In this document: positions 2,552 to 46,930 of the stretch, piece after piece
Layout of the letters: every line of letters starts with the position of its first letter
How positions within the stretch are numbered: position 1 is the stretch's first letter
Assembly (NCBI GenBank): GCA_015075365.1
Contig: JABTUN010000002.1
Location: forward strand, 186,001-250,000
From: Verrucomicrobiaceae bacterium
GTDB taxonomy: Bacteria; Verrucomicrobiota; Verrucomicrobiia; Verrucomicrobiales; Verrucomicrobiaceae
DNA length: 64,000 nucleotides
Reading direction: 5' to 3'
The notes under the pieces: generated by a model
Database searches by the model: none
Seen by the model: the letters and a program-made list of their open reading frames with translations, nothing else
Told to the model about the DNA's origin: nothing
Made by a program: the position numbers and the translations under genes

Positions 2552-4744
2552 TCATTGAAACCAGCGCTTCACACGGCCCCAGAAGCCTCCCCCCTGCGGC
2601 GCGGGGCGGGGTTGGGGCTGCGCGACACGCGGCATGGCACCGCGATGCTCCAGGCAGAAATCCTGCGGCAGCACCTCATAGGGCAGCGTGTCCTCATAGG
2701 CCATGCCGGCGTGGTGGCAGCCATCCGTGGCGAGCTGGCTGCTCAGGCGGCAGAGCGAGACACGGCTGAGCGGCAGTCCTGCCATGGGCACCTCGCTCTT
2801 GTAGCCGAGTTTTACCGCCTCCTTCATCACATCCGCCCAGATGGGCAGCGAGAGCCGTCCTCCGTATCCTTCGTCGATGATCGTCTGCGGCCGGTCGAGG
2901 CCGACCCATACGCCGCAGGTGAGGCGCTCCGTGTATCCGGCGAACCACGCGTCCTTGTAATCATTCGTCGTGCCCGTCTTGCCGCCGCCGGGCTCCTTGA
3001 AACCATGCTCCCCGCGCACGGCGGCGGCTGTGCCGCGCTCCATGACCTGCGCCAGGATGCCGCGCATCACATGGGCCACGCCGGGATTGACCACCTCGCC
3101 GTCGAGCACCGGGGTCTGGTAGATCGTGGCACCGGTCTTGTCGATGATGCGGTCGATCAGGAAGGGGCGGCGGCGCACACCCCCGTTCGGAAACACGCTC
3201 ATGGCGCTGGCGAGCTGCCGCACATTGCCGCCGATGTTGCCGATGAAGATCTGCGGCGTGCGCTCCTTCGGCATGTTGAATCCCGCGTCTGCCAGCAGGT
3301 TCAGCACACGGTCGAGCCCGGTGAAATTGCCAAGGCGCACGGTCATGGTGTTGCGACTGAGCACCAGGCCGTCCGTGAGCGTCTTGAGGCCGAGAAACTT
3401 CCCGTCGCTGTTCTGCGGGCTCCAGCCGAGCGCCGCCCCTTGGATTTCATGGGGCTGGATCGGCGCGTCGTCGATCAAGGTGCCGGGGAGGAAACCGGCG
3501 GCCACCCCCGCGGCATAGACAAAGGGCTTCACCGTCGATCCGATCTGCCGCTCCCCCTGGATGGCGCGGTTGTACTTGCTGTGGCGGTAGTCACGCCCGC
3601 CGACGATGGCCAGGATGCCGCCGGTCTGGTTGTCCAGCAGCGTCAGCGCGGCCTGGAGATACGGCGTGGTGCTGATCTCCACCGAGCCGTCCCAGGTCTT
3701 GTCAAAATCAGCCTTCCTGGGATGCTGGTAGGCCTTCAGCTTTTCCACCGCGGCCAGACGCTTTTCCACCGAGGCCTCCGCGGCGAGCTGGATGTCCTTG
3801 TTGATCGTGGTGAACACCTGCAGACCGCCGTCCTCGATGTCCTGCTGCTCCAGAATGAGATCCAGGTCGTGGCGCACCATGTCCAGCGCGTAGCCGCCCT
3901 GGCTCTGAAACGCCGGCTGCGCGTGCAGCGCGATGTCCGCGTAGCGCGCCTCCAGCTCCTCCTCCGCCGTGATCACCTTCGTCGTCAGCATGCGCTGGAG
4001 CACGTCATTGCGCTCCTTGATCGCGCCGTCGTAATTCCGGAAGGGGGAGAAGCGCACCGGGCTGCGCACGATGCCCGCGATCAGCGCGGCCTCGCTGAGA
4101 TTCAGCTGGCTGGCGTGTTTGCCAAAGTACACCTGGCTCGCGCGCTGGATGCCATACAGGCCGGTGCCAAAGAAGATGCGGTTCACATAGTGCTCGATGA
4201 TCTGCTCTTTCGTGCACGCCTTTTCGATGCGGCGCGCCAGCATCATCTCCAGCACCTTGCGGTGCAGATTGCGGTCATCCCCCAGCTCCGGGAAACTGTT
4301 GCGTGCGAGCTGCATTGTCAGCGTGCTGGCCCCCTGCACGATGCGGCCGTCCTTCAGGTTGCGCACCGCGGCGCGTGCCACCCCATGGTAATCAATGCCG
4401 CCGTGGGAGTAAAAGCGCGCGTCCTCGCGCGCCAGCAGCGCCTTGATGAACCAGGGGGAGACCTCGCTCAGCGGCACCACGATGCGGTTTTCCCCGTGCA
4501 TGCGCCCCAGCACCTCGCCCTTGAAGTCATACACCACCGTGCGCTCCGGCATCTGGCCTAGTTGCGTCAGGTCAAAGGCCTTCGCCCACTGGCTGTACAC
4601 GGCGATCACCACCACCATCGCCAGCGTCGTCAGCAGCGTCCCCCCCAGGATGAAAAACAGAGCCAGCCGCCTCCATCGCTGCCAGCGCGACATGACCCGC
4701 GGCTTTTTCACGGGCTTCTTGTCAGGTGCGGTTCTTTTCTTCAT
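2552..4744 (-). CDS. class A penicillin-binding protein (PBP1A family)
   Basis: 730 aa from the ATG at 4744; upstream codons in frame are Pro/Gly-rich and not protein-like. A basic cytoplasmic tail and one membrane segment (LALFFILGGTLLTTLAMVVV) are followed by a GT51 glycosyltransferase domain with EDARFYSHGGIDYHG and QGASTLTMQLARN, then a transpeptidase domain with the SxxK motif (GSTVKPFVYAAG), SRN (LSRNTM) and KTGT (GGKTGTTND). It polymerises and cross-links peptidoglycan in the periplasm. All catalytic motifs look intact and the length is normal. The C-terminal ~60 residues are Pro-rich. It stands alone, not in an obvious operon. Confidence 0.96.
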   Translation of the reverse strand: MKKRTAPDKKPVKKPRVMSRWQRWRRLALFFILGGTLLTTLAMVVVIAVYSQWAKAFDLTQLGQMPERTVVYDFKGEVLGRMHGENRIVVPLSEVSPWFIKALLAREDARFYSHGGIDYHGVARAAVRNLKDGRIVQGASTLTMQLARNSFPELGDDRNLHRKVLEMMLARRIEKACTKEQIIEHYVNRIFFGTGLYGIQRASQVYFGKHASQLNLSEAALIAGIVRSPVRFSPFRNYDGAIKERNDVLQRMLTTKVITAEEELEARYADIALHAQPAFQSQGGYALDMVRHDLDLILEQQDIEDGGLQVFTTINKDIQLAAEASVEKRLAAVEKLKAYQHPRKADFDKTWDGSVEISTTPYLQAALTLLDNQTGGILAIVGGRDYRHSKYNRAIQGERQIGSTVKPFVYAAGVAAGFLPGTLIDDAPIQPHEIQGAALGWSPQNSDGKFLGLKTLTDGLVLSRNTMTVRLGNFTGLDRVLNLLADAGFNMPKERTPQIFIGNIGGNVRQLASAMSVFPNGGVRRRPFLIDRIIDKTGATIYQTPVLDGEVVNPGVAHVMRGILAQVMERGTAAAVRGEHGFKEPGGGKTGTTNDYKDAWFAGYTERLTCGVWVGLDRPQTIIDEGYGGRLSLPIWADVMKEAVKLGYKSEVPMAGLPLSRVSLCRLSSQLATDGCHHAGMAYEDTLPYEVLPQDFCLEHRGAMPRVAQPQPRPAPQGGGFWGRVKRWFQ

Positions 4745-4865
4745 GCGGAGGTTTGGTTCATGATAACGCGCATCCCCGCCGGGGGGCAACCCTCAGACGA
4801 TGAACTCCATGTGAACTTCACCCGGTCCTGGCCATGCCCATATCCCGTGGGGGGCGCGTTGAGCC

Positions 4866-5837
4866 TCAAAAACACCGCCGGCACACCTCCCGCAGGCCCG
4901 CCCGCGTCGTGCAGCGGCGCATGTCATGGAGAAACGTCTCCGCGTCCGCCAGCCCGGGGCCGAAAAAGCCCAGATGCTTCTTGATCCGGTTCACCTGGTC
5001 GAGCTCGCGGGTGCCGGGCAGCGTCACGCAATCATAAAGCTCCTCGACATAGGCCAGCAAATCATCGCGTGACGGCTGGAGGACCGGCCCGCCACGCAAG
5101 TGCTGCCGGATCTGGTCAAACAGCCACGGATTGCGGATCGCGCCCCGCCCGATCATCAGGCCCGCGACGCCCGTCTCCCGCACCACCGCCTCCGCGTCAA
5201 AAGGGGAGCCGATGTTGCCGTTCGCCAGCACCGGGCACTCCAGAGCCGCCCTGGCCGCGCCGATCAAATCGTAGCGCACCCCCGCGCGATACATCTGCGT
5301 CACCGTGCGGCCGTGAATCGTCACCAGATCCACCCCATGCTTCACAAACAACGGCACCAGCGCGTCGATCGTCTCCGTGTCATCAAAGCCCAGCCGCGTC
5401 TTCACCGTGAACTTCACCCGCACCGCCTCGCGTAGCGCGCCCAGGATGCCCTCGATGCGCGGCACATCCCGCAGCAGGCCGCCGCCGGCGCACTTGCGAT
5501 ACACCACCGGCGCCGGGCATCCCAGGTTCAGGTCGATCGCCGCCACCGCATGCTCCTGCAGTTCCCTGGCCCCGCGCACCAGGGACGGGATGTCATTGCC
5601 GATCATCTGCGCCACCACCGGCCTGCCCGTGGGGTTGTCGATGACGGAATCGAGGATCCACTTCTCCAGATGGGAGTCCGGGTGGACGCGAAAATACTCC
5701 GTGTAATACACATCCGCCCCGCCATGGCGCGCCATCAGCCTCCAAAACTCCCGGTCCGTCACATCCTGCATCGGTGCCAGCGCCAGGAGAGGCTCCTGGC
5801 GTCCCAAAAGCTGCTCAAACTGCTCCACCGGACTCAT
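4866..5837 (-). CDS. dus: tRNA-dihydrouridine synthase
   Basis: 323 aa. This FMN enzyme reduces uridine to dihydrouridine in the D-loop of tRNA. The TIM-barrel N-terminus LALAPMQDVTDREFW, the DLNLGCPAP motif, the catalytic Cys in RKCAGGGLL, the phosphate-binding VKTRLGFDD strand, TIHGRTVTQMY, ANGNIGS and GLMIGRGAIRNPWLF are all in order. Length matches the family. It is transcribed convergently with nothing close by. Which Dus subfamily it belongs to (DusA, B or C) cannot be decided here. Confidence 0.94.
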   Translation of the reverse strand: MSPVEQFEQLLGRQEPLLALAPMQDVTDREFWRLMARHGGADVYYTEYFRVHPDSHLEKWILDSVIDNPTGRPVVAQMIGNDIPSLVRGARELQEHAVAAIDLNLGCPAPVVYRKCAGGGLLRDVPRIEGILGALREAVRVKFTVKTRLGFDDTETIDALVPLFVKHGVDLVTIHGRTVTQMYRAGVRYDLIGAARAALECPVLANGNIGSPFDAEAVVRETGVAGLMIGRGAIRNPWLFDQIRQHLRGGPVLQPSRDDLLAYVEELYDCVTLPGTRELDQVNRIKKHLGFFGPGLADAETFLHDMRRCTTRAGLREVCRRCF

Positions 5838-12314: not shown

Positions 12315-12458
12315 AGGCGGGAGAAAGGTTGGGCGGGGATATTACTCAAAAAGGCCGCGCCTTGGGAAGAGGAAACTGCGGCTTTTTTTAGGCAGAACCT
12401 CAACAAGTCGCACACCACCCTTGCCAGCACTGCGTCTTCTCCCTAGCCTGCGGCTGTT

Positions 12459-12641
12459 ATGAACCGCATTTACCAAGGACGTGTCACAAAGGTGCAGGTG
12501 CCCGCGCCTGCCAGCGCCAATGATGAGGATGGCCGAAAGAAGGAAAAGAAGGGCGAAAAAAACGACTGGATCGACCTGCCTGAGGGTGAAGCCGTTCTGT
12601 GGCGGCACCATGAGCTGTTTCAGGATGCGGTGAATGGTTAA
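12459..12641 (+). CDS. short Cas12b N-terminus-like ORF, same frame as cas12b
   Basis: 60 aa starting MNRIYQGRVTKVQVPAP and ending WRHHELFQDAVNG. The pattern (a beta strand, a Lys-rich loop, then a helix with LFQDAVN) parallels the start of the downstream effector, whose residues ~45-55 read THEVFQDAVCYY; 14 bases (TTTCAGGATGCGGT) are identical. The ORF is in the same reading frame as cas12b. One TAA at 12639 ends it and no further stop lies before the cas12b ATG at 12675. It may be a duplicated or truncated N-terminus, a remnant of a replaced allele, or a short protein in its own right. A readthrough product would be 1676 aa. Translation is unproven. Confidence 0.55.
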   Translation: MNRIYQGRVTKVQVPAPASANDEDGRKKEKKGEKNDWIDLPEGEAVLWRHHELFQDAVNG

Positions 12642-12674: not shown

Positions 12675-15600
12675 ATGAGCACCGTTTATCGCAGCTACGA
12701 GGTCTTGATCGAAGAGACCGCCCGGAATCATCACGCTCGCAAGGCGGGGAAGACGAAGAAGGAACTTCATCCGAACCACCTCAACACGGAGCAGGCGCTC
12801 AAGACAACGCATGAGGTGTTTCAGGATGCGGTCTGCTACTACATTCTGTGCATCCTCGGGTTGATCAAAGGCGGCACAGATCGCAATGGTAAAGTTGCAT
12901 CGCCACTATGGAACAGCGTGACTGCTGAAGGGAGGCTTGGAGAGACCCATGATTTGGTGAAGCGGTTGGCGGAGAGTTATCCTGCGGCTCCGTTTAGTGC
13001 TGCCACAACAGTAGAGGAGTTTCTGTCAGCTGTTTATGGCGAAAGGACCACTACAGCTGACCGTGCTGCGGTGATGGCCGTTTTGCTTGCTCAAATTCAA
13101 AAAAAGGATGGAACACTCGACTGTGGAGACTTTGCCGAATTCGCCCGTGACAATGGATTGAGGTTTTGTAGTTCCGACAGCACACGAGCTCTTCCCGGTT
13201 GTGCGCCTATCGACCGGCTTTTCTGGCGCATGGCTGCGGCAAAAGAGCCATCATCCTATTGGGACATCATCAAAGACTATTGGAAGGAACTAGCACGAAC
13301 GCCGACGACGACGGAGCGCGACCAATATTTGAAGGCATTCGAAGACAAGAACAACAAACAGCCTCTTGGAATTTCGACTGACCTGTTTGAACAATGTCGG
13401 GATAAGATCGCCGCCGCTCAGGATTTCGCAGACTTCATTTGGTTTCATAAATCGGGGCCAATTGGCACCCTGCATTATGCGATTGCTCGGTATTCATGGC
13501 TGTCCGCCCATCACACGGATAGTCCTGCGCGGAGTGAAGCGGAAGCAAAGCTGGGTGAATACGTTCGGAAAGTCCTAGCAAAAGACTTTCCAGAAACGGA
13601 ACACAATAAGCCAGTCTTGTCCGAGGGTTCGGAGGTTGTGGGCATACCGGGAACACGCCCCACCTTCCCCTATTTCACCAATCTGATGGGATGTGCCTTC
13701 GAGTCACAAGGCTTTCGCCAAAAATTCGATGAATCGGCACTGAAGCGGGCATTCGACGAAGTGTTCAAGTATCGCAATCGCTCCGAAGATCGAGAGCGTC
13801 TCTTCAGCCAGCGCCACGCAATGGTCAAAGCAATGGAGTCGGACGGGACGGTGCCATTGTTTTCGCAGAAGTCGCAGCCAGGAGACGGAAAGCGAAGTGC
13901 CAAGGCAAAGAAGCCCAAGAAGGATGTCAAGCCGCGCAATCTCGGCGGCCTGAAAGGTGATGACGAGCGGAAGAAGGCGATGAATGCTTTGTTGGGCAAG
14001 ATCGGAGGTCAGATTGGCTACGGATTGCGTCGCGCCACGATTGGCGGTTGGGCGGAACTGCGGAATGAGTTTTTGAAGTATGCACGCAAGGCGAAGAAAG
14101 AAGGCGATGATCTTGATGAGGAGGAACTGATCGAGATCGTGACCAAAGCGCAGGGTGATAGCGCAGGTGGATTCGGCAGCGCTGCATTTTTCCGCGAGTT
14201 GTGCAAGGAGGAGAATCACATCCTGTGGCTGCCAAAGGCGGAAGAGCTGCCTGAGCATTGTCCGAAGAATTTCGTTCGCTGGTGGGTGATCTACTCCGAG
14301 GCGAAGGGGGAACTGGAAAAGATCGCGACGCTCCCGAAAGGTGTGACGGACTGGAAAGATGCAGTGCTCAAGCCCATCTCGTTCACCTGGCCAGGAACGA
14401 AGAATCGGCACAACGAGGAGAGTTTTCGCCCACTGGATTTTGCGTGCGATCTGACATCTCGACCCGTGGTGCAGTTGTTCCACAGGGAAAAGAAGGGGGC
14501 TGCGATCAAGCTCGTGGAAACGAACAGCCAATGGGTGATGGACAAGGATGAAAAGTGGAGTTGGAAGCTCGATCTCGCAGGTGAGGTGCCGTATCCGATG
14601 ACGCTGAGCTTTCGGCGCTTGAAGCGCGACAAGCTGGTGAGGGCTGACGGGAATTCGTTCGAGTCATCGTATGGCATTCCCCTGGCAGCCATCGACAAGG
14701 CTCCGCTGCCTGACATGCAGCCGGAAGACAAACCGAAGAAGCCGAAGAACCTCTCTCCAAGTGTGTCGCTCCTGCCGCCAGACAAAATGGACGGGCCATT
14801 TCATCTGATGTTTGCCTTTGATGTCGAAGCGGAGGCATTGCAGTCGGACACGAAGAGATTGCCTGGACTCAAACCACTGAGGACAACGAAGAAGAATGGA
14901 AAATGGGTCGGACTGAACGCGCGCTGGAGTGTGGATGCCAAGACGGAAGGCAAGGTTGAAGAATCACCAACTATTGCAGCCGAGGAAGAAGAACCGGTTG
15001 AGTCGGGCGGGGCCTTCAAGGTGAAAGAGCTTTGGAGTGAACTGGATTCCTTCGAGCCATTCGACATTCTCTCGATTGATCTAGGAGTGCGGTTCACAGC
15101 GGCATGGAGCCGGAATCAAATTTCGATGGGTGCCAAGCCTTCATCTCGTGCGCGGGAGATTTCGCCGCATGGGCACAAGCATCAGATTTGGTTCGACTCT
15201 TACCAGCGCGGTGCCTTGAAGCTGCAAGGCGAAGATGCCGAAGAGTATCGCAAAGAAAAAGGCGAGGACTCATACCCAGACAAACCGTTGCCCGAGAAGT
15301 ATGGCACGAAGGGGCGACTGGCATCCGATGCGGAGCGGGAACAGTTTGCAAAACTGGCGGTCGCCATCCTGCCTGAAAGCAAGCGGAACGCTTTGCCGGA
15401 GGCGGAGGACCAGAAGTTCTTTCCTCTGCTGGGAGACCATCTGACGTGGAGATTACGGCGGAGACTCAGCCGGTTGAAGTTTTTGTTCACGTTGCGGTGG
15501 CGTGCCATCGGGAAGAAAGACCGCTTTGGAACCAATGACTATCGCCCTGCTGAGTCGGAGAAGGATTGGAAAGAGCTTTGGGAGAAGAATCTTTACAAGG

Positions 15601-17489
15601 CCATTGAGAGCCTGGCCTTTCAGCCCGATGAGCCGGAAGAAGGTGAGGAACCTGAGATTGAGGAGCCGTTCATGGAAAAACTGCGTCATGCGCTTTGCAA
15701 CGATGACGAGATTTGGAAATCGCTTCGCTATGAACATGGCGGGAAGACGTTCGCGCTGTTTCGTAAGGTGAAGGGGAAGAAGGGCAAGGCTGGCAAGGCC
15801 GATGAGAAAGTTCAGAAAGAAGCGCAAAAGAAGGCGCAAGATGCACTGAAGAAGGGATTGGTAGAGAAGACTGATAATCGCTGGAACTGGAAGGCACTTG
15901 CGGACGAGGCGAGGGATCAAATCGAGGAGGTGATGAAGGCGGTCGAAGGTCAGCACGGATGGATTGCGGAAGCCGCGCAGTTTGTGTGGCCGCTGCGGGA
16001 CAAAGACTGGGTTTGGCATCGTTGCAGATATGACGGACCGAGAGGTGAGCTTTCAGAGCAGGCATTTCTGGAACGGGATGAGCAATCCAGCGTGAAGGAG
16101 AAGCGGCACATTCGAGGAATGCGCGGTTTGAACATGCGGCGCATCGAGGTGCTGCAAGATTTTCGGCGCTGTCTGCAAAGCCTGGCGAAGATTGAACGGC
16201 GTTATCGTCAGCCGGGAACAGATCATGGGTTGGAACCTTCCAAGGTGGAACTTGGTGATACGGTGCATGAACCTGCGCAGGCGTTCCTGGACAACATCAA
16301 TGAACTCCGCGACCAGCGAGTGTTTCAAACCGCACACTTGATACTGGCAGAGGCGCTTGGGTTGCAGTTGATGAATCCCGGCAAGGTGATGATCGACGAA
16401 AAGAACAAGAAGGAACTGAAGTCGGAGCGCGACCTCCACGGACGCTATGAACCGAAAAAAGACAAGGATGGAAAGCCTTTGCCTCGAGTGTCAGCCATTG
16501 TGTTGGAAGATTTAGGCCGCTACAAAACCAGTCAGGACCGCTCTCGGTTTGAGAACCGGCAGTTGATGGAATGGAGCCACGGCAAGGTGGTGGCGAAACT
16601 GCAAGACATGGCACAAGTCTTCGGCATCGAGATTATTGTCGTCGATGCGCGGTTCTCGTCGCGATACAGTTCACGAACGGGTGCTCCTGGCGTGCGCTGT
16701 GCCGAAGTGGCGATTGGATTTGAAAAAGAACAGCCTTGGAGGCGATGGTCGGAAGAGAAAGTCGGCAAAGGGAAGGATCGCAAGGCGTCGGAACGAGCCC
16801 AGTTCATCCTCGATGTCGCTGGGAAGCTCAAGGAGGTGGATGATCCCAAGGCATCGCTCTGGCTGCCGTTGGATGGAGGACCCGCTTTTGTGCCGACGAT
16901 ATCTCATGCGCCTGATAAAGAAGGAATCGAGGGAAGCGCGGACATCAATGCTGCCGTCAGCGTGGGGCTTCGTGCGGTCGCACATCCTGACAGGCTTGAT
17001 GTCTTTCCAGTTTTACGCACCGAGGCGAAAGCCGAGGGCGAACTGGAGATTCAGAACCGTAGGGGTTCGTTGTCTGAAGCAGCCACTAAAAAGGCAGAGG
17101 AGCGCACGGTGCGAATTGTGGAGCCGAAGGCCAAGCCAACAAAAGAGGAGAAGCCTGTCGCAGATGAGAATGTGGAAGATGAAGATGGTGACGATGAGCT
17201 GGAAACCAACAGGAAGCCTTATTTGTATGCTGCGGTGAAGGTGAACGGAGATTTTTCCGTGCCGCTTGGTGCCGACGTTCGCTATCAGCTTCCCATGAAA
17301 CAAAATGGCGAGCTAGTCACGGCTCGTGAGAAGGGATGCAGTGCGGCGACTGGCAAAGACTACTGGGCTCGCGTTAAGCGGCTGGCATGGCGTCGGTTGA
17401 AGACGATCAATGCTGCCCGCTTGGCTGCCAGAAAGTGCGGTGTCCCGGAGGAATGGCTCAAGCCTGATCCCGACGACGACATTCCATAG
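12675..17489 (+). CDS. cas12b: Cas12b-like type V-B CRISPR effector nuclease, unusually large
   Basis: 1604 aa. Predicted RNA-guided DNA endonuclease using crRNA plus tracrRNA. The split RuvC domain is complete: RuvC-I LSIDLGVRF with D802, RuvC-II IVLEDLGRYK with E1278, RuvC-III GSADINAAVSVGL with D1423. Family-specific motifs match Cas12b as I know it from Alicyclobacillus: ENRQLMEWSH, SSRYSSRTGAPGVRC, and an Arg-rich helix after RuvC-I (TWRLRRRLSRLKFLF). Known Cas12b proteins are about 1100-1300 aa; the extra length lies in the N-terminal lobe (~800 residues before RuvC-I), in ~475 residues between RuvC-I and II, and in charged linkers near 404-420 (Lys-rich), 755-779 (Glu-rich), 987-1000, 1032-1062 and 1461-1516. 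Codon and base use are visibly less GC-rich than cas4-cas1. Start ATG at 12675 follows the short ORF by 33 bp; no strong Shine-Dalgarno is visible. Confidence 0.92.
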   Translation: MSTVYRSYEVLIEETARNHHARKAGKTKKELHPNHLNTEQALKTTHEVFQDAVCYYILCILGLIKGGTDRNGKVASPLWNSVTAEGRLGETHDLVKRLAESYPAAPFSAATTVEEFLSAVYGERTTTADRAAVMAVLLAQIQKKDGTLDCGDFAEFARDNGLRFCSSDSTRALPGCAPIDRLFWRMAAAKEPSSYWDIIKDYWKELARTPTTTERDQYLKAFEDKNNKQPLGISTDLFEQCRDKIAAAQDFADFIWFHKSGPIGTLHYAIARYSWLSAHHTDSPARSEAEAKLGEYVRKVLAKDFPETEHNKPVLSEGSEVVGIPGTRPTFPYFTNLMGCAFESQGFRQKFDESALKRAFDEVFKYRNRSEDRERLFSQRHAMVKAMESDGTVPLFSQKSQPGDGKRSAKAKKPKKDVKPRNLGGLKGDDERKKAMNALLGKIGGQIGYGLRRATIGGWAELRNEFLKYARKAKKEGDDLDEEELIEIVTKAQGDSAGGFGSAAFFRELCKEENHILWLPKAEELPEHCPKNFVRWWVIYSEAKGELEKIATLPKGVTDWKDAVLKPISFTWPGTKNRHNEESFRPLDFACDLTSRPVVQLFHREKKGAAIKLVETNSQWVMDKDEKWSWKLDLAGEVPYPMTLSFRRLKRDKLVRADGNSFESSYGIPLAAIDKAPLPDMQPEDKPKKPKNLSPSVSLLPPDKMDGPFHLMFAFDVEAEALQSDTKRLPGLKPLRTTKKNGKWVGLNARWSVDAKTEGKVEESPTIAAEEEEPVESGGAFKVKELWSELDSFEPFDILSIDLGVRFTAAWSRNQISMGAKPSSRAREISPHGHKHQIWFDSYQRGALKLQGEDAEEYRKEKGEDSYPDKPLPEKYGTKGRLASDAEREQFAKLAVAILPESKRNALPEAEDQKFFPLLGDHLTWRLRRRLSRLKFLFTLRWRAIGKKDRFGTNDYRPAESEKDWKELWEKNLYKAIESLAFQPDEPEEGEEPEIEEPFMEKLRHALCNDDEIWKSLRYEHGGKTFALFRKVKGKKGKAGKADEKVQKEAQKKAQDALKKGLVEKTDNRWNWKALADEARDQIEEVMKAVEGQHGWIAEAAQFVWPLRDKDWVWHRCRYDGPRGELSEQAFLERDEQSSVKEKRHIRGMRGLNMRRIEVLQDFRRCLQSLAKIERRYRQPGTDHGLEPSKVELGDTVHEPAQAFLDNINELRDQRVFQTAHLILAEALGLQLMNPGKVMIDEKNKKELKSERDLHGRYEPKKDKDGKPLPRVSAIVLEDLGRYKTSQDRSRFENRQLMEWSHGKVVAKLQDMAQVFGIEIIVVDARFSSRYSSRTGAPGVRCAEVAIGFEKEQPWRRWSEEKVGKGKDRKASERAQFILDVAGKLKEVDDPKASLWLPLDGGPAFVPTISHAPDKEGIEGSADINAAVSVGLRAVAHPDRLDVFPVLRTEAKAEGELEIQNRRGSLSEAATKKAEERTVRIVEPKAKPTKEEKPVADENVEDEDGDDELETNRKPYLYAAVKVNGDFSVPLGADVRYQLPMKQNGELVTAREKGCSAATGKDYWARVKRLAWRRLKTINAARLAARKCGVPEEWLKPDPDDDIP

Positions 17490-17539
17490 CCCAATTCACG
17501 AGACGAGATTCCCTTCACCTGATCCCGGTTTCAACGCCC

Positions 17540-17773
17540 ATGAAACGCCGCAAGTCTGACTACCACATCAATCTGTTCTACAGCGCGGAGGACGGCGGCT
17601 ACATCGCCGACGTGCCGGACTTGAAGTCCTGTGCGGCGTTTGGGGAGACTCCGGAGCAAGCCTTGAAAGAAGTCTTGAACGCGAAGTCGGCCTGGCTGGC
17701 GGCGGCGAAGAAGCACAAGAAGCCGGTGCCTGCCCCGCTTTACCGTCCAGCGATCTATGCCGTGGCGGGGTGA
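17540..17773 (+). CDS. HicB-like small protein
   Basis: 77 aa. The fold signature of HicB antitoxins is clear: YHINLFYSAEDGGYIADVPDLKSCAAFGETPEQALKEVLNAKSAWLAAAK. HicB normally neutralises the mRNA interferase HicA, encoded next to it, but no HicA-like ORF is present on either side. There is no added DNA-binding domain; the C-terminus is only a short Pro-rich tail. It sits 50 bp after cas12b and directly before cas4-cas1 on the same strand, so it is probably part of the cas transcript. Its role there is unknown: orphan antitoxin, RNA-binding accessory, or passenger. Confidence 0.82.
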   Translation: MKRRKSDYHINLFYSAEDGGYIADVPDLKSCAAFGETPEQALKEVLNAKSAWLAAAKKHKKPVPAPLYRPAIYAVAG

Positions 17774-17830
17774 TTGGATTGGCCGCGAAGCGGCGGGGAT
17801 TTGACAGGTGGGCTTATACTACCCGCCGTC

Positions 17831-19654
17831 ATGAATGCCGCTGCCCCGATTCAAACGCAGGATGACGTGATGTCCCTGCAACCGCCGCTGCCGGTGCGCC
17901 GGCTGCACAACTTCATCTACTGCCAGCGCCTCTTCTATTACCAGTGGGTGGAGAACCTGTTCGAGGAGAACGCGGACACGATCGCCGGAAGCCATGCGCA
18001 CCGGAACGTGGACAAGCCCTCGAACTATGACGAGGACCGCAAGACGGCGCTGGCGGAGGGCCTGCCGGAAGGGGCGCGGCTGCGGAGCCTGAAGCTGGAA
18101 AGCATCACCCTGGGGCTGGTGGGTGTGGTGGATCTGATCGAGGGCGGGCCGGAGGGCGCGGAAGTCGTGGACTATAAGAAGGGCAGCGCGAAGCGGAGCC
18201 AGAACGGCGAGCGCGTGGCGAAGGAGAGCGATGCGGTGCAGGTGATGGCTCATGCGCTGCTGCTGGAAGAAGAAGGCACCCGGGTGACGCGGGGCTGGAT
18301 CTACTACGCGGAGGACAAGCGCCGGGTGGGCGTGGAGCTGACGCCGGAACTGCGGGAGCTGACGCTGCGCTCGCTGGAGGCAGCGAAGGCGCTGGCGGCC
18401 AGCGGCGAGTGCCCGCCGCCGCTGGTGCATGATCCGCGCTGCCTTCACTGCTCCGCCTACCCGATCTGCCTGCCGAATGAGAGCCGCTGGTGGGCGGCGG
18501 GCTTTGAGGAGAAGGTGGATGAGCAGCAGATGGCCTTTGTGTTTGAGGGCTGGCAGGAACGTGGAACGGGTTTTCAACCTGTTCGGACTGGAGCGGGGGC
18601 GGACGGGGGCGTCCGCGCCCCCGAGATCAAGGAAGCGCCGAGGCCGGGTTGTGATGCGGGGGAGATTCTAGTGGTGCAGGAGCCGGGGGCGCAGGTGGGG
18701 CAGCGCGGGGACATGTTCACGGTGAGCGTGAAGGGCGAGGTGGTGCAGAAGATGCCGGGGCATCAACTGCGGGCGATCTATGTGTATGGCGCGGTGCAGC
18801 TCACGGCGCAGGCGGTGCAGACGGCGCTGGAGCTGGACATCGACGTGGCCTACTTCTCCCCGGCGGGCCGCTTCCTCGGCATGCTGCGCGGCCTGCCGAC
18901 GAGCGGGGTGGATGCGCGGATGGGCCAGTATGAATGCTTCCAAAAGGAACCCATCCGCCTGAAGCTGGCCCGCGAGGTAATCCGGGCGAAGATTCACAAC
19001 CAGCGCGTGCTCCTCATGCGGAATGGCGATGCGCCGGAAAGCGCGCTCAAGACCATGGCGGAGCTGCGGGACGGCGTGGCGGAGGTGGAAGACCGCACGC
19101 AGCTCCTCGGCTACGAGGGCATGGCGGCGAACCTGTACTTTGAGCACTTCCCCACGATGCTCAAAGGGCGTGGCGAAGCCTGGCGCTTTGATTTCCAAGG
19201 GCGAAACAAGCGTCCGCCGCGTGATCCAGTGAACGCGCTGCTGTCCATGGCCTACAGCATGCTGGCAAAGGAACTGACGGGCATGTGCCATGCGGTGGGG
19301 CTGGATCCGTTCCTGGGCTTCCTCCACCAGCCGCGCTATGGACGGCCGGCGCTCGCTTTGGACCTGATGGAGGAGTTTCGTCCGCTGATCGCGGACAGCG
19401 TGGTAATCTCCCTGATCAACCGGGGAGAGCTGGGCGTGGAGGATTTTGTGCGGAGCGCGAACGGTACCTTCCTGAAGGACGGAGGCCGCCGGGCCTTCTG
19501 GGAAGGCTATTTCCGCCGGATGGACATGGAGGTGAGCCACCCGGAATTCGGCTACAAGATGAGCTACCGCCGCATGCTGGAGGTGCAGGGCCGCCAGCTC
19601 TGGCGCTACCTGCGCGGGGAGGCGGCGGGCTACCATGGATTCACCACGAGATAG
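17831..19654 (+). CDS. cas4-cas1: Cas4-Cas1 fusion, spacer acquisition nuclease/integrase
   Basis: 607 aa from the ATG at 17831; the frame is open back to a TTG at 17774, which is a weaker choice. The Cas4 part (~1-220) has RRLHNFIYCQRLFYY, the RecB-type motifs GVVDLIEG and VVDYKKG, and the iron-sulfur cysteines in YCQRL and CLHCSAYPIC. The Cas1 part (~275-607) has the catalytic Glu in GYEGMAANLYF and His/Asp in GFLHQPRYGRPALALDL. Cas4 trims prespacers next to the PAM and Cas1 integrates them. Such fusions are typical of type V-B and I-U loci. The linker (~residues 240-270) is encoded by a REP-like hairpin sequence at about 18580-18625. Composition is GC-rich like the chromosome, unlike cas12b. 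Confidence 0.95.
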   Translation: MNAAAPIQTQDDVMSLQPPLPVRRLHNFIYCQRLFYYQWVENLFEENADTIAGSHAHRNVDKPSNYDEDRKTALAEGLPEGARLRSLKLESITLGLVGVVDLIEGGPEGAEVVDYKKGSAKRSQNGERVAKESDAVQVMAHALLLEEEGTRVTRGWIYYAEDKRRVGVELTPELRELTLRSLEAAKALAASGECPPPLVHDPRCLHCSAYPICLPNESRWWAAGFEEKVDEQQMAFVFEGWQERGTGFQPVRTGAGADGGVRAPEIKEAPRPGCDAGEILVVQEPGAQVGQRGDMFTVSVKGEVVQKMPGHQLRAIYVYGAVQLTAQAVQTALELDIDVAYFSPAGRFLGMLRGLPTSGVDARMGQYECFQKEPIRLKLAREVIRAKIHNQRVLLMRNGDAPESALKTMAELRDGVAEVEDRTQLLGYEGMAANLYFEHFPTMLKGRGEAWRFDFQGRNKRPPRDPVNALLSMAYSMLAKELTGMCHAVGLDPFLGFLHQPRYGRPALALDLMEEFRPLIADSVVISLINRGELGVEDFVRSANGTFLKDGGRRAFWEGYFRRMDMEVSHPEFGYKMSYRRMLEVQGRQLWRYLRGEAAGYHGFTTR

Positions 19655-19708: not shown

Positions 19709-19996
19709 ATGAGAACCCGCTACCTCATCTGCTACGACATCTGCCACCCGAAGCGCCTGCGCCGGGTGGCGAAGGCCATGGAAGGCTACGGCGTGCGCCT
19801 CCAGTACAGTGTCTTTGAATGCGCCCTGGACGAGAAACGCTACCGCAAGATGGAGGCGGAACTCCAGCCCATCCTGAACCATGACGAGGACCAGGTCTTG
19901 TTTGTCAGCCTGGGGCCGGAGGACAGCAGCCACGGCCTGCGGATCGAGGCGATGGGCCTGCCCTACCTCGTCCGCAGCCGGGTGACGATTGTGTGA
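19709..19996 (+). CDS. cas2: Cas2, spacer acquisition subunit
   Basis: 95 aa, the normal length. The ferredoxin-like fold is recognisable: RYLICYDICHPKRLRRVAKAM with the conserved Asp after the first strand, GYGVRLQYSVFEC, and a late strand DQVLFVSLGPED. A Cas2 dimer bridges two Cas1 dimers during spacer integration. It follows cas4-cas1 by 54 bp on the same strand and ends about 400 bp before the array. No catalytic oddity seen. Confidence 0.95.
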   Translation: MRTRYLICYDICHPKRLRRVAKAMEGYGVRLQYSVFECALDEKRYRKMEAELQPILNHDEDQVLFVSLGPEDSSHGLRIEAMGLPYLVRSRVTIV

Positions 19997-20026: not shown

Positions 20027-20121
20027 TGCGGGCACTCCTGCCCGCAGAGAGCCAGTGGTTCCCGGTTCATGCCCGGCCAGCAGGGAATTTTGCGCTTGCG
20101 CTCGCGGACGTTCCCGCGAGC
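20027..20121 (+). other. two strong hairpins downstream of cas2
   Basis: A 7-bp stem TGCGGGC/GCCCGCA (20027-20033 with 20040-20046) and an 8-bp stem GCTCGCGG/CCGCGAGC (20100-20107 with 20114-20121), each with a 6-nt loop. Neither is followed by a T-run, so they are not classic terminators. They could be part of a structured RNA or processing sites between cas2 and the tracrRNA candidate. Confidence 0.5.
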
Positions 20122-20151
20122 ATGGGGCGGCCATGTGCCACCGACCACCTT

Positions 20152-20250
20152 TCCTCCGCCATTGGGAAGGCAAGCTCTAGGAAATCCTGAGTGGATATCT
20201 GATCTCTGAAATCATGACGACCGAAGCGGCGGCGCTCCTCGCGAGCGCGG
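20152..20250 (+). ncRNA. candidate tracrRNA region with split anti-repeat
   Basis: Bases 20208-20227 match the reverse complement of the first 20 bases of the CRISPR repeat at 17 of 20 positions, ending in an unbroken run of nine (GACCGAAGC). Upstream, CAAGCTC (20171-20177) and CCGCC (20156-20160) complement the next parts of the repeat in the correct antiparallel order, with loops between, as in the discontinuous pairing known for Cas12b tracrRNA. A perfect hairpin GCGCTC/GAGCGC (20232-20248) follows. Strand is inferred: plus is favoured by the array layout, but the same pairing would hold for minus-strand transcription of both RNAs. Ends are approximate. Confidence 0.6.
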
Positions 20251-20398
20251 AAGTGCCGGGCCTGTCCCGTAGCCGCGCTCGCGAAGGGCGTCAGACACTA
20301 TTTAGATAGACGCGGAAAGGCTGGCAACAGCGTTCCACAACAAGCGCTCGCGCCAAGCGGCTGAAAGGCTGTTCGCAGGCCCGTTCCACGGCCTAGCC
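20251..20398 (+). promoter_or_regulatory. possible CRISPR leader
   Basis: The stretch directly before the first repeat contains the only AT-rich patch of the region (CACTATTTAGATAGA near 20296-20310) and no ORF. Position next to cas2 and before the first repeat fits a leader. No promoter boxes can be called with confidence. Confidence 0.35.
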
Positions 20399-21282
20399 GC
20401 TTCGGTCTTGATGATTCCAGCGAGCTTGAGGCGGCAAAGGGGTTTATTCATGTTTCCTCTCTGATTTAGCTTCGGTCTTGATGATTCCAGCGAGCTTGAG
20501 GCGGGTCCTGCTGCGGCCACTCCCGTGCCAGAATCTCCCGCTTCGGTCTTGATGATTCCAGCGAGCTTGAGGCGGACCCAAGCCCGCCGCGCCCCCGCCG
20601 ACGAAAACCTTGCTTCGGTCTTGATGATTCCAGCGAGCTTGAGGCGGAGCCGCTCCGTGTCGCAACGCGCCTCCGCCGGTGTGCTTCGGTCTTGATGATT
20701 CCAGCGAGCTTGAGGCGGCGCCGGATGAATGAACTCGATTTCCGCGCCGTAGTGCTTCGGTCTTGATGATTCCAGCGAGCTTGAGGCGGGGCATCGCAGG
20801 GCAGGTGGAAGCCGCCGTCGATGGCTTCGGTCTTGATGATTCCAGCGAGCTTGAGGCGGAAACGCCTCATCGGTGTTGATGTCACCCAGCACTTTGCTTC
20901 GGTCTTGATGATTCCAGCGAGCTTGAGGCGGAACTAAAAAGTTTTTGGGATTGTCGGCCATTATTTGCTTCGGTCTTGATGATTCCAGCGAGCTTGAGGC
21001 GGATTTGTGCCAGCCAGTCTATCCAATTGGAGGAGTGCTTCGGTCTTGATGATTCCAGCGAGCTTGAGGCGGATGATCTCGTGGATGAAGTTGGATTTGA
21101 ACCACAGCTTCGGTCTTGATGATTCCAGCGAGCTTGAGGCGGCTTCATCCTTCATTCTCTATCCTTCCGCCATGCCGCTTCGGTCTTGATGATTCCAGCG
21201 AGCTTGAGGCGGCCTCCCTCCTTCCTCTTCTCCCTCTCCCCCTCTTGCTTCGGTCTTGATGATTCCAGCGAGCTTGAGGCGA
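20399..21282 (+). CRISPR. CRISPR array, 13 repeats of 36 bp, 12 spacers
   Basis: Repeats begin at 20399, 20469, 20540, 20612, 20683, 20754, 20824, 20896, 20967, 21037, 21107, 21177 and 21247. They start GCTTCGGTCTTG and end GAGCTTGAGGCGG. All copies are identical except the last, whose final G is A. Spacers are 34-36 bp. On the plus strand the repeat's AGCGAGC followed by TTGAG resembles, from memory, the Alicyclobacillus Cas12b repeat. The terminal variant at 21282 also suggests the leader is on the left. Spacer 12 (21213-21246) is a pure pyrimidine tract with low information. None of the spacers visibly matches another place in the window. Confidence 0.97.
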
Positions 21283-46168: not shown

Positions 46169-46930
46169 ATGCGCGCCTCCCACACCCATGTCCTGGGATC
46201 CATATCCTCCTTTTTCCGGCTGACGGCCGGGATCGTGGTGCATGCAATCACCCATCTGGACGCCCTGCGCCGCCGGCCGGTCATGGCGGTGACCTACAAG
46301 CAGGTGTACTTCACCGGCATCCAGGCGCTGCTTCCAGCGGCTTTCGCAGCCGTCGCGATCGGCTTCATCATGGAGACGCAGATGCGCGGCCTCCTGGGCA
46401 GCGGCATCGAGCTGAATGTCAAAATGCTCAAACTAGTGGTGCTGCGGGAGTTTGCGCCGCTGTTCACCGCCTTCATCGTGCTCGGGCGCAGCGGCGCGGC
46501 CATCGCCAGCGAGCTTGCGGCGATGAAGGTGCAGGGCGAAATTCGAAGCCTCTACCTCATGGGCATTGATCCTGGCGAGTATCTGCTCGTGCCGCGTGTT
46601 GTGGGGTGCGCGGTGGCCGTTCCGGTGCTCACGTTCTATTTTCAGGCCATCGTGGCAGGCATGGGGCCGGCCTTGGCCTCCGTGTTTGTCGAGATCGACC
46701 TCGGCCCCTACTACCAGGCCTTGTTCGCGTCCATCACGCTTCAGGAATTGCTCGTATCCGCGGCCAAAAGCATCTGCTTCGGCCTCGTGATCGCCGCCGC
46801 AGCGTGTTCCAGCGGCATTTATGTGCCGCCAAGTCGCATCTGGATCCCGCAGGCCGCGGAACTGGCCGTCATACGCGGATTCCTGCTGCTGCTGGCGACG
46901 GACGCCGTTTTCGCCCTTCTCACCCTCTGA
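46169..46930 (+). CDS. mlaE: MlaE-type ABC permease
   Basis: 253 aa. Typical MlaE sequence: YKQVYFTGIQALLPAAFAAVAIG, LVVLREFAPLFTAFIVLGRSGAAIASELAAMKVQGEI and ALYLMGIDP-type loop (SLYLMGIDPGEYLLVPRVVG), then three more hydrophobic helices. It is the membrane part of a lipid transporter that moves phospholipid between the membranes with the MCE protein. Three bases separate its stop from the next gene. Confidence 0.93.
   Translation: MRASHTHVLGSISSFFRLTAGIVVHAITHLDALRRRPVMAVTYKQVYFTGIQALLPAAFAAVAIGFIMETQMRGLLGSGIELNVKMLKLVVLREFAPLFTAFIVLGRSGAAIASELAAMKVQGEIRSLYLMGIDPGEYLLVPRVVGCAVAVPVLTFYFQAIVAGMGPALASVFVEIDLGPYYQALFASITLQELLVSAAKSICFGLVIAAAACSSGIYVPPSRIWIPQAAELAVIRGFLLLLATDAVFALLTL

Follow-up and report, generated by a model that had tools for sequence, protein, structure and literature searches.

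Does the interval between cas2 and the CRISPR array of this locus encode the tracrRNA of its Cas12b effector, and what guide would result from an anti-repeat that falls into separate blocks? An earlier sequence-only reading had placed a cognate tracrRNA at 20152-20250 of the window, by which we mean the whole 64,000-nt stretch of DNA analyzed here. Its central claim held up: a complete type V-B (Cas12b) locus is present, and 20129-20227 on the + strand very probably encodes its tracrRNA, given a Cas12b equivalog, intact cas4-cas1, cas2 and array, and homologous elements that pair with their own repeats.

The genes follow in the order cas12b (12675-17489, +), a cas4-cas1 fusion (17774-19654, +, intact, 608.5 bits), cas2 (19709-19996, +, intact), the tracrRNA, and an array of 13 repeats of 36 nt (20399-21282, +). 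The effector, of 1604 aa, matches the NCBIfam Cas12b equivalog model NF033949 at 399.5 bits (cut-off 150 bits), its top PDB matches are C2c1/Cas12b chains, and motif reading without structural alignment locates the RuvC motifs at IDLG (801), LEDL (1276) and ADIN (1422). The model covers the protein in two stretches and leaves the middle part unmatched, indicating that this Cas12b clade has extra sequence of unassigned fold; the Cas12b of the public MAG L009 measures 1911 aa. The repeat is GCTTCGGTCTTGATGATTCCAGCGAGCTTGAGGCGG, and degeneration is confined to the last copy, from which the array is assigned to the + strand and its leader to the end facing cas2. No targets were found in viral contigs using 21-mers of three spacers, and comparison of the array with phages gave a chance-level match only.

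NiCas12b and its orthologues share this gene order, with Cas12b, Cas1, Cas2, tracrRNA and array in that order in 11 of 15 orthologues; 13 repeats of that set end in CAC, whereas the window repeat ends in GGCGG, and its effectors span 1064-1529 aa, compared with 1604 aa here (PMC11423069). The NiCas12b sgRNA has three stem-loops (PMC11423069). The tracrRNAs of AkCas12b and others were mapped between Cas12b and the array by small RNA-seq, and the window element resembles that of AkCas12b in lying in the interval between cas genes and array (PMC6342934).

Some type V-B loci carry additional genes. Between cas12b and cas4-cas1, the window encodes a HicB/UPF0150-like protein (17540-17773, +) that scores below the Pfam cut-offs, and the same interval of genome G026 (L022, about 4550-5080, minus strand) holds a PemK/MazF-like toxin gene; both are toxin-antitoxin-like. 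Two distant genomes have a gene for a four-helix-bundle protein (23S_rRNA_IVP, PF05635) within the locus (L009 14941-15483; L093 about 1010-1463), in one case separating cas4-cas1 from cas2 and in the other right before the tracrRNA.

Repeat pairing and the covarying stem

Complementarity to the repeat is distributed over three blocks of the + strand. As the earlier reading had noted, 17 of the 20 bases at 20208-20227 complement repeat bases 1-20; co-folding adds CTG/CAG pairs and extends this upper part of the long anti-repeat to 20206-20227, opposite repeat bases 1-22, with 19 of 22 paired. The two shorter blocks that it had listed are also present: the lower part of the long anti-repeat, CAAGCTC (20171-20177), pairs in the co-fold with GAGCTTG at repeat 24-30, and the short anti-repeat CCGCC (20156-20160) is complementary to the last five repeat bases, 32-36. 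Co-folding of the tracr region with the repeat, which that reading had suggested as a check, yielded stem, lower duplex, hairpin and upper duplex in one structure.

A search of both strands of the entire 64 kb for a better rival anti-repeat found none outside the array: the top ungapped non-array match to the repeat complement was 20203-20227 (score 15.0), and the runner-up (14.5) was a minus-strand match at 46506-46522, well away from the locus. When the gap between cas2 and the array (402 nt) was put through 1000 dinucleotide shuffles, the maximum was 12 against the observed 15, none being as good. Duplex energy calculated across the whole window did not pick out the site, with GC-rich coding stretches at about -43 kcal/mol. 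Rfam gave no family match at gathering score.

Upstream of the lower block lies a stem, CCTTTCC/GGGAAGG, with a 9-nt loop (TCCGCCATT; 20148-20170, +), in which 20148-20154 pair with 20164-20170 over 7 bp, including one G-U. The earlier reading had described a hairpin next to the two short blocks; the hairpin is real, but its stem encloses CCGCC and ends where CAAGCTC begins. Across 14 sequences, 93.9% of stem cells are paired (79.0% after shuffling), 19 cells carry changes on both sides (6.2 shuffled) with double changes in six of the seven pairs, and the covariation score is 0.678, compared with 0.377 for shuffled alignments and at most 0.349 when the stem is slid.

Presented in this loop, CCGCC is predicted from sequence to form a pseudoknot with the end of the repeat. 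It is unchanged in all 14 loci whose repeats end in GGCGG, and because both partners are invariant, no covariation is possible for this pairing inside that group. In G343 and G301 the pairing differs on both sides (GTGTC with GACAC), and, as we read the sequence, the loop there holds an inner hairpin as well. The loops of known Cas12b tracrRNAs also contain an inner hairpin, as in G343 and G301, whereas the window loop holds the short anti-repeat alone. Co-fold programs exclude pseudoknots; the co-fold instead pairs the repeat GGCGG with CCGACC at 20141-20146, an alternative that is less conserved.

The comparison drew on Cas12b loci at four levels of relatedness (genus, family, order and phylum) and on L009. 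A homologous element lies between cas2 and a Cas12b-associated array in at least 10 other genomes (cas2-array homologues in G026, G007, G009, G490, L009, G179, G344, G278, G126, G132, G267 and G123), each pairing with its own repeat. The shared anatomy comprises a promoter-like site, a stem of ~7 bp with CCGCC in a 9-nt loop, and the long anti-repeat; the L009 locus has one repeat remaining. A covariance model of the stem independently recovered the elements of G490 and G525, the latter near the end of a contig, downstream of cas2. Covariance-model matches with E > 0.001, and that in G592 (1.4e-4), were not used; where such discarded matches were read, the sequence inspected contained no repeat array.

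Several loci depart from the single-copy arrangement. Three tandem tracrRNA modules precede a single array in G344 (L064, 1300-1540, minus strand), and two are present in G278 (L069), of which the second retains the lower anti-repeat only. In G032, a tracrRNA and five-repeat array occupy a contig without nearby cas genes (L036, G032:C47, 6440-7070), while cas12b lies on a different contig that breaks off within this same tracr sequence, reflecting either duplication or assembly error. G011:C162 (L037, 286-366) keeps a remnant in which a promoter and tracr stem are fused directly to GCTTGAGGCGG, as after deletion of the anti-repeat, leader and array.

When 12 anti-repeats were scored against 12 repeats, each tracrRNA from outside the genus fitted its own repeat best (43-51; best foreign partner at most 38.5), and in G009 the partner of the lower part is altered along with the repeat. 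Within the genus, the anti-repeats resemble one another and pair across loci; the window and G026 anti-repeats score slightly higher with the G007 repeat than with their own, because repeat bases have changed and left an internal loop. Inverted copies of CRISPR repeats occur near arrays, and the anti-repeat might in principle be a decayed, functionless copy of this kind or a chance match. We reject this reading as very improbable: the shuffles exclude chance, anti-repeats track the repeats of their own loci across large distances, and the adjoining covarying stem does not belong to a repeat.

The hairpin inside the long anti-repeat

Cas12b tracrRNAs pair with the crRNA through one short and one long segment (PMC11246509). 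The earlier reading had invoked this two-segment design, which is indeed the known one, but in the window a 28-nt hairpin (20178-20205, +) divides the long segment again, into lower and upper parts. The tracrRNAs of BhCas12b and BthCas12b (type V-B, PDB 5WTI, PMC11246509), among the closest known systems, likewise combine a long duplex with a short one of 5 bp (pseudoknot) beside the guide, and they have the same order of 5' hairpin, stem and anti-repeat; their long duplex of about 30 bp is broken only by a bulge, whereas that of the window is broken by a hairpin.

The insertion is conserved in position and fold. Seven family loci from two genera (the window, G026, G007, G490, G009, G032 and G525) carry 25-29 extra nt opposite about repeat 20-24, with conserved flanks and a sequence that varies between species. 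The stems read AUCC/GGAU in the window, G026 and G007, with a similar one in G490; CGUGC/GCACG in G009 (loop UGCG) and G032 (loop GCAA); and CGCGCC/GGCGCG in G525. The insert is absent from the more distant relatives examined, where the co-folds of G179, L009, G344, G278 and G267 each showed one long duplex with mismatches, the long anti-repeat being unbroken over ~30 bp. Single-sequence fold z-scores range from -0.4 to -3.3 (window -0.7, no more stable than shuffles), so that the support for the hairpin is comparative. A long duplex continuous apart from a bulge is a usual but not a necessary feature of a Cas12b tracrRNA, and the hairpin makes this one a variant. The Cas12b tracrRNA is already known as a kind of RNA; what is new is the hairpin-split anti-repeat, which is predicted to yield a three-way junction in the guide.

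One alternative accepts the tracrRNA and regards the insert as a passive, bulge-like expansion that is lost in processing and has no function. Bulges do occur in known Cas12b long duplexes (PMC11246509) and the window's own insert folds weakly, but recurrence of a hairpin at the same place in seven loci and two genera, with unrelated stem sequences and conserved flanks, argues against it, and we consider it a real though lesser possibility. Mature Cas12b crRNAs retain about 14 nt of the repeat, and the insert splits the duplex near the start expected on that basis. Another alternative takes the several pairing blocks as the sign of a scoutRNA-like RNA of type V-C/V-D. Cas12c RNA (type V-C) does share three disjoint pairing blocks with the window element, but it serves another effector and its blocks are 4-7 bp, whereas the upper block here alone has about 19 bp (PMC11246509). 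With Cas12b as the effector, a dominant long pairing of about 26 bp, and a single continuous long duplex in the relatives, the scoutRNA reading is contradicted by the effector family and was rejected as hardly credible. A literature search returned no paper on Cas12b in Verrucomicrobia/Opitutaceae or on a three-way junction in the guide, an absence that is not proof.

Extent of the RNA and its proposed assembly

The strand and ends of the tracrRNA given here are inferred. It probably starts near 20129 rather than at 20152 and need not extend to 20250. The earlier reading missed the likely 5' part (20129-20147) and a second, smaller hairpin at 20178-20205. The probable 5' end is a mini-hairpin in the co-fold (GGCCATGTGCC; 20129-20139, +), with a similar one, GGNCATGTNCC, in G026, G007, G032, G490, G525, G126 and G123. 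Further upstream lies a candidate promoter, CTTGCG (20095-20100), 17 nt and GAGCAT (20118-20123) on the + strand. A strict promoter scan of the window returned nothing, and the candidate matches the consensus poorly. Family loci have a CTTGCG-like site followed after 17 nt by a second hexamer ending 26-27 nt upstream of the stem (40 nt in G009), and five more distant relatives have far better sigma-70-like sites 23-33 nt upstream of it. We infer that the conserved CTTGCG-like site is the tracrRNA promoter.

On the 3' side, a strong G+C-rich hairpin (20231-20292, +), supported by co-folding and conserved in the family alignment, separates the tracrRNA from the leader; it is a possible 3' end signal, though without a U-run. 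A single read-through transcript, in which the anti-repeat folds onto the first repeat and thereby gives spacer 1 a natural single guide, would suit two elements about 170 nt apart on the same strand with no U-run terminator found between them on that strand. The intervening conserved hairpin and leader, together with the tandem and stand-alone tracr copies (G344, G278), favor a separate RNA, and we regard read-through as improbable.

We are highly confident in the overall reading of a type V-B tracrRNA from ~20129 on the + strand, with an upper and a lower duplex, a loop pseudoknot and a three-way junction made by the hairpin. In the proposed assembly, transcription of the + strand from about 20129 would give the tracrRNA, which would pair with the pre-crRNA repeat through the upper duplex (1-22), the lower duplex (24-30) and the 5-bp loop pseudoknot (32-36). 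The hairpin, projecting from the tracrRNA side between both parts of the long duplex, would form the three-way junction. Cas12b would hold the stem, pseudoknot and lower duplex, RNase III would trim the upper duplex, and the extra hairpin would cap the junction of the retained and trimmed parts.

One guide module beside two Cas12b clades

More surprising than the split anti-repeat is the near-identical guide beside strongly different Cas12b proteins. The effectors of the window, G007, G032, G490 and L009 form a clade (A) with support 100/100, distant from the rest of the tree, while that of G026 falls outside it. The window and G026 nevertheless have identical repeats, 88% identical tracr-region DNA, and Cas2 and Cas4-Cas1 proteins of 98% and 91% identity, compared with 24.9% for Cas12b over 1359 aligned positions. 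The Cas4-Cas1 tree intermixes both clades, with zero bootstrap trees giving clade A a single origin. DNA identity of the window to G026 or G009 is 82-83% at 12420-12635, immediately before cas12b, vanishes across the gene and resumes at 17798. Both insert types are found with both effector clades, which indicates that the insert goes with the guide module and not with the protein.

Candidate remnants flank the gene on either side. Upstream, a short ORF (12459-12641, +) encodes a truncated ordinary Cas12b N-terminus, MNRIYQGRV...LWRHHELFQDAV, reaching FQDAV and ending at a stop only a few codons later. Such an ORF, cut at nearly the same codon, precedes cas12b in G009 (L024) as well as in each of the five clade-A loci (the window, G007 (L025), G032 (L026), G490 (L102) and L009); with a dN/dS of about 0.36-0.5, it may be a functional, conserved small protein. 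Straight after the cas12b stop, PNSRDEIPFT* (17490-17522, +) is similar to the C-terminal end of Cas12b from G050 and probably represents what is left of the 3' end of an effector that was replaced. These stumps suggest scars of effector replacement.

We lean, by a narrow measure of confidence, toward a family-wide picture in which the guide of Cas12b forms a three-way junction and stays a fixed module beside which effectors from clades of ~25% identity have been exchanged, with practically one crRNA:tracrRNA pair serving very different Cas12b proteins. The constancy of the covarying stem, CCGCC pseudoknot and lower duplex makes them the likely recognition core. For this large, divergent Cas12b (1604 aa), which has no close relative of solved structure, the locus provides a guide that is ready to be tested, and the hairpin inside the long duplex is a possible site for guide engineering. 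The natural swaps in this family, with the same repeat and a near-identical tracrRNA beside a 25% identical effector, probe which features of the guide Cas12b reads.
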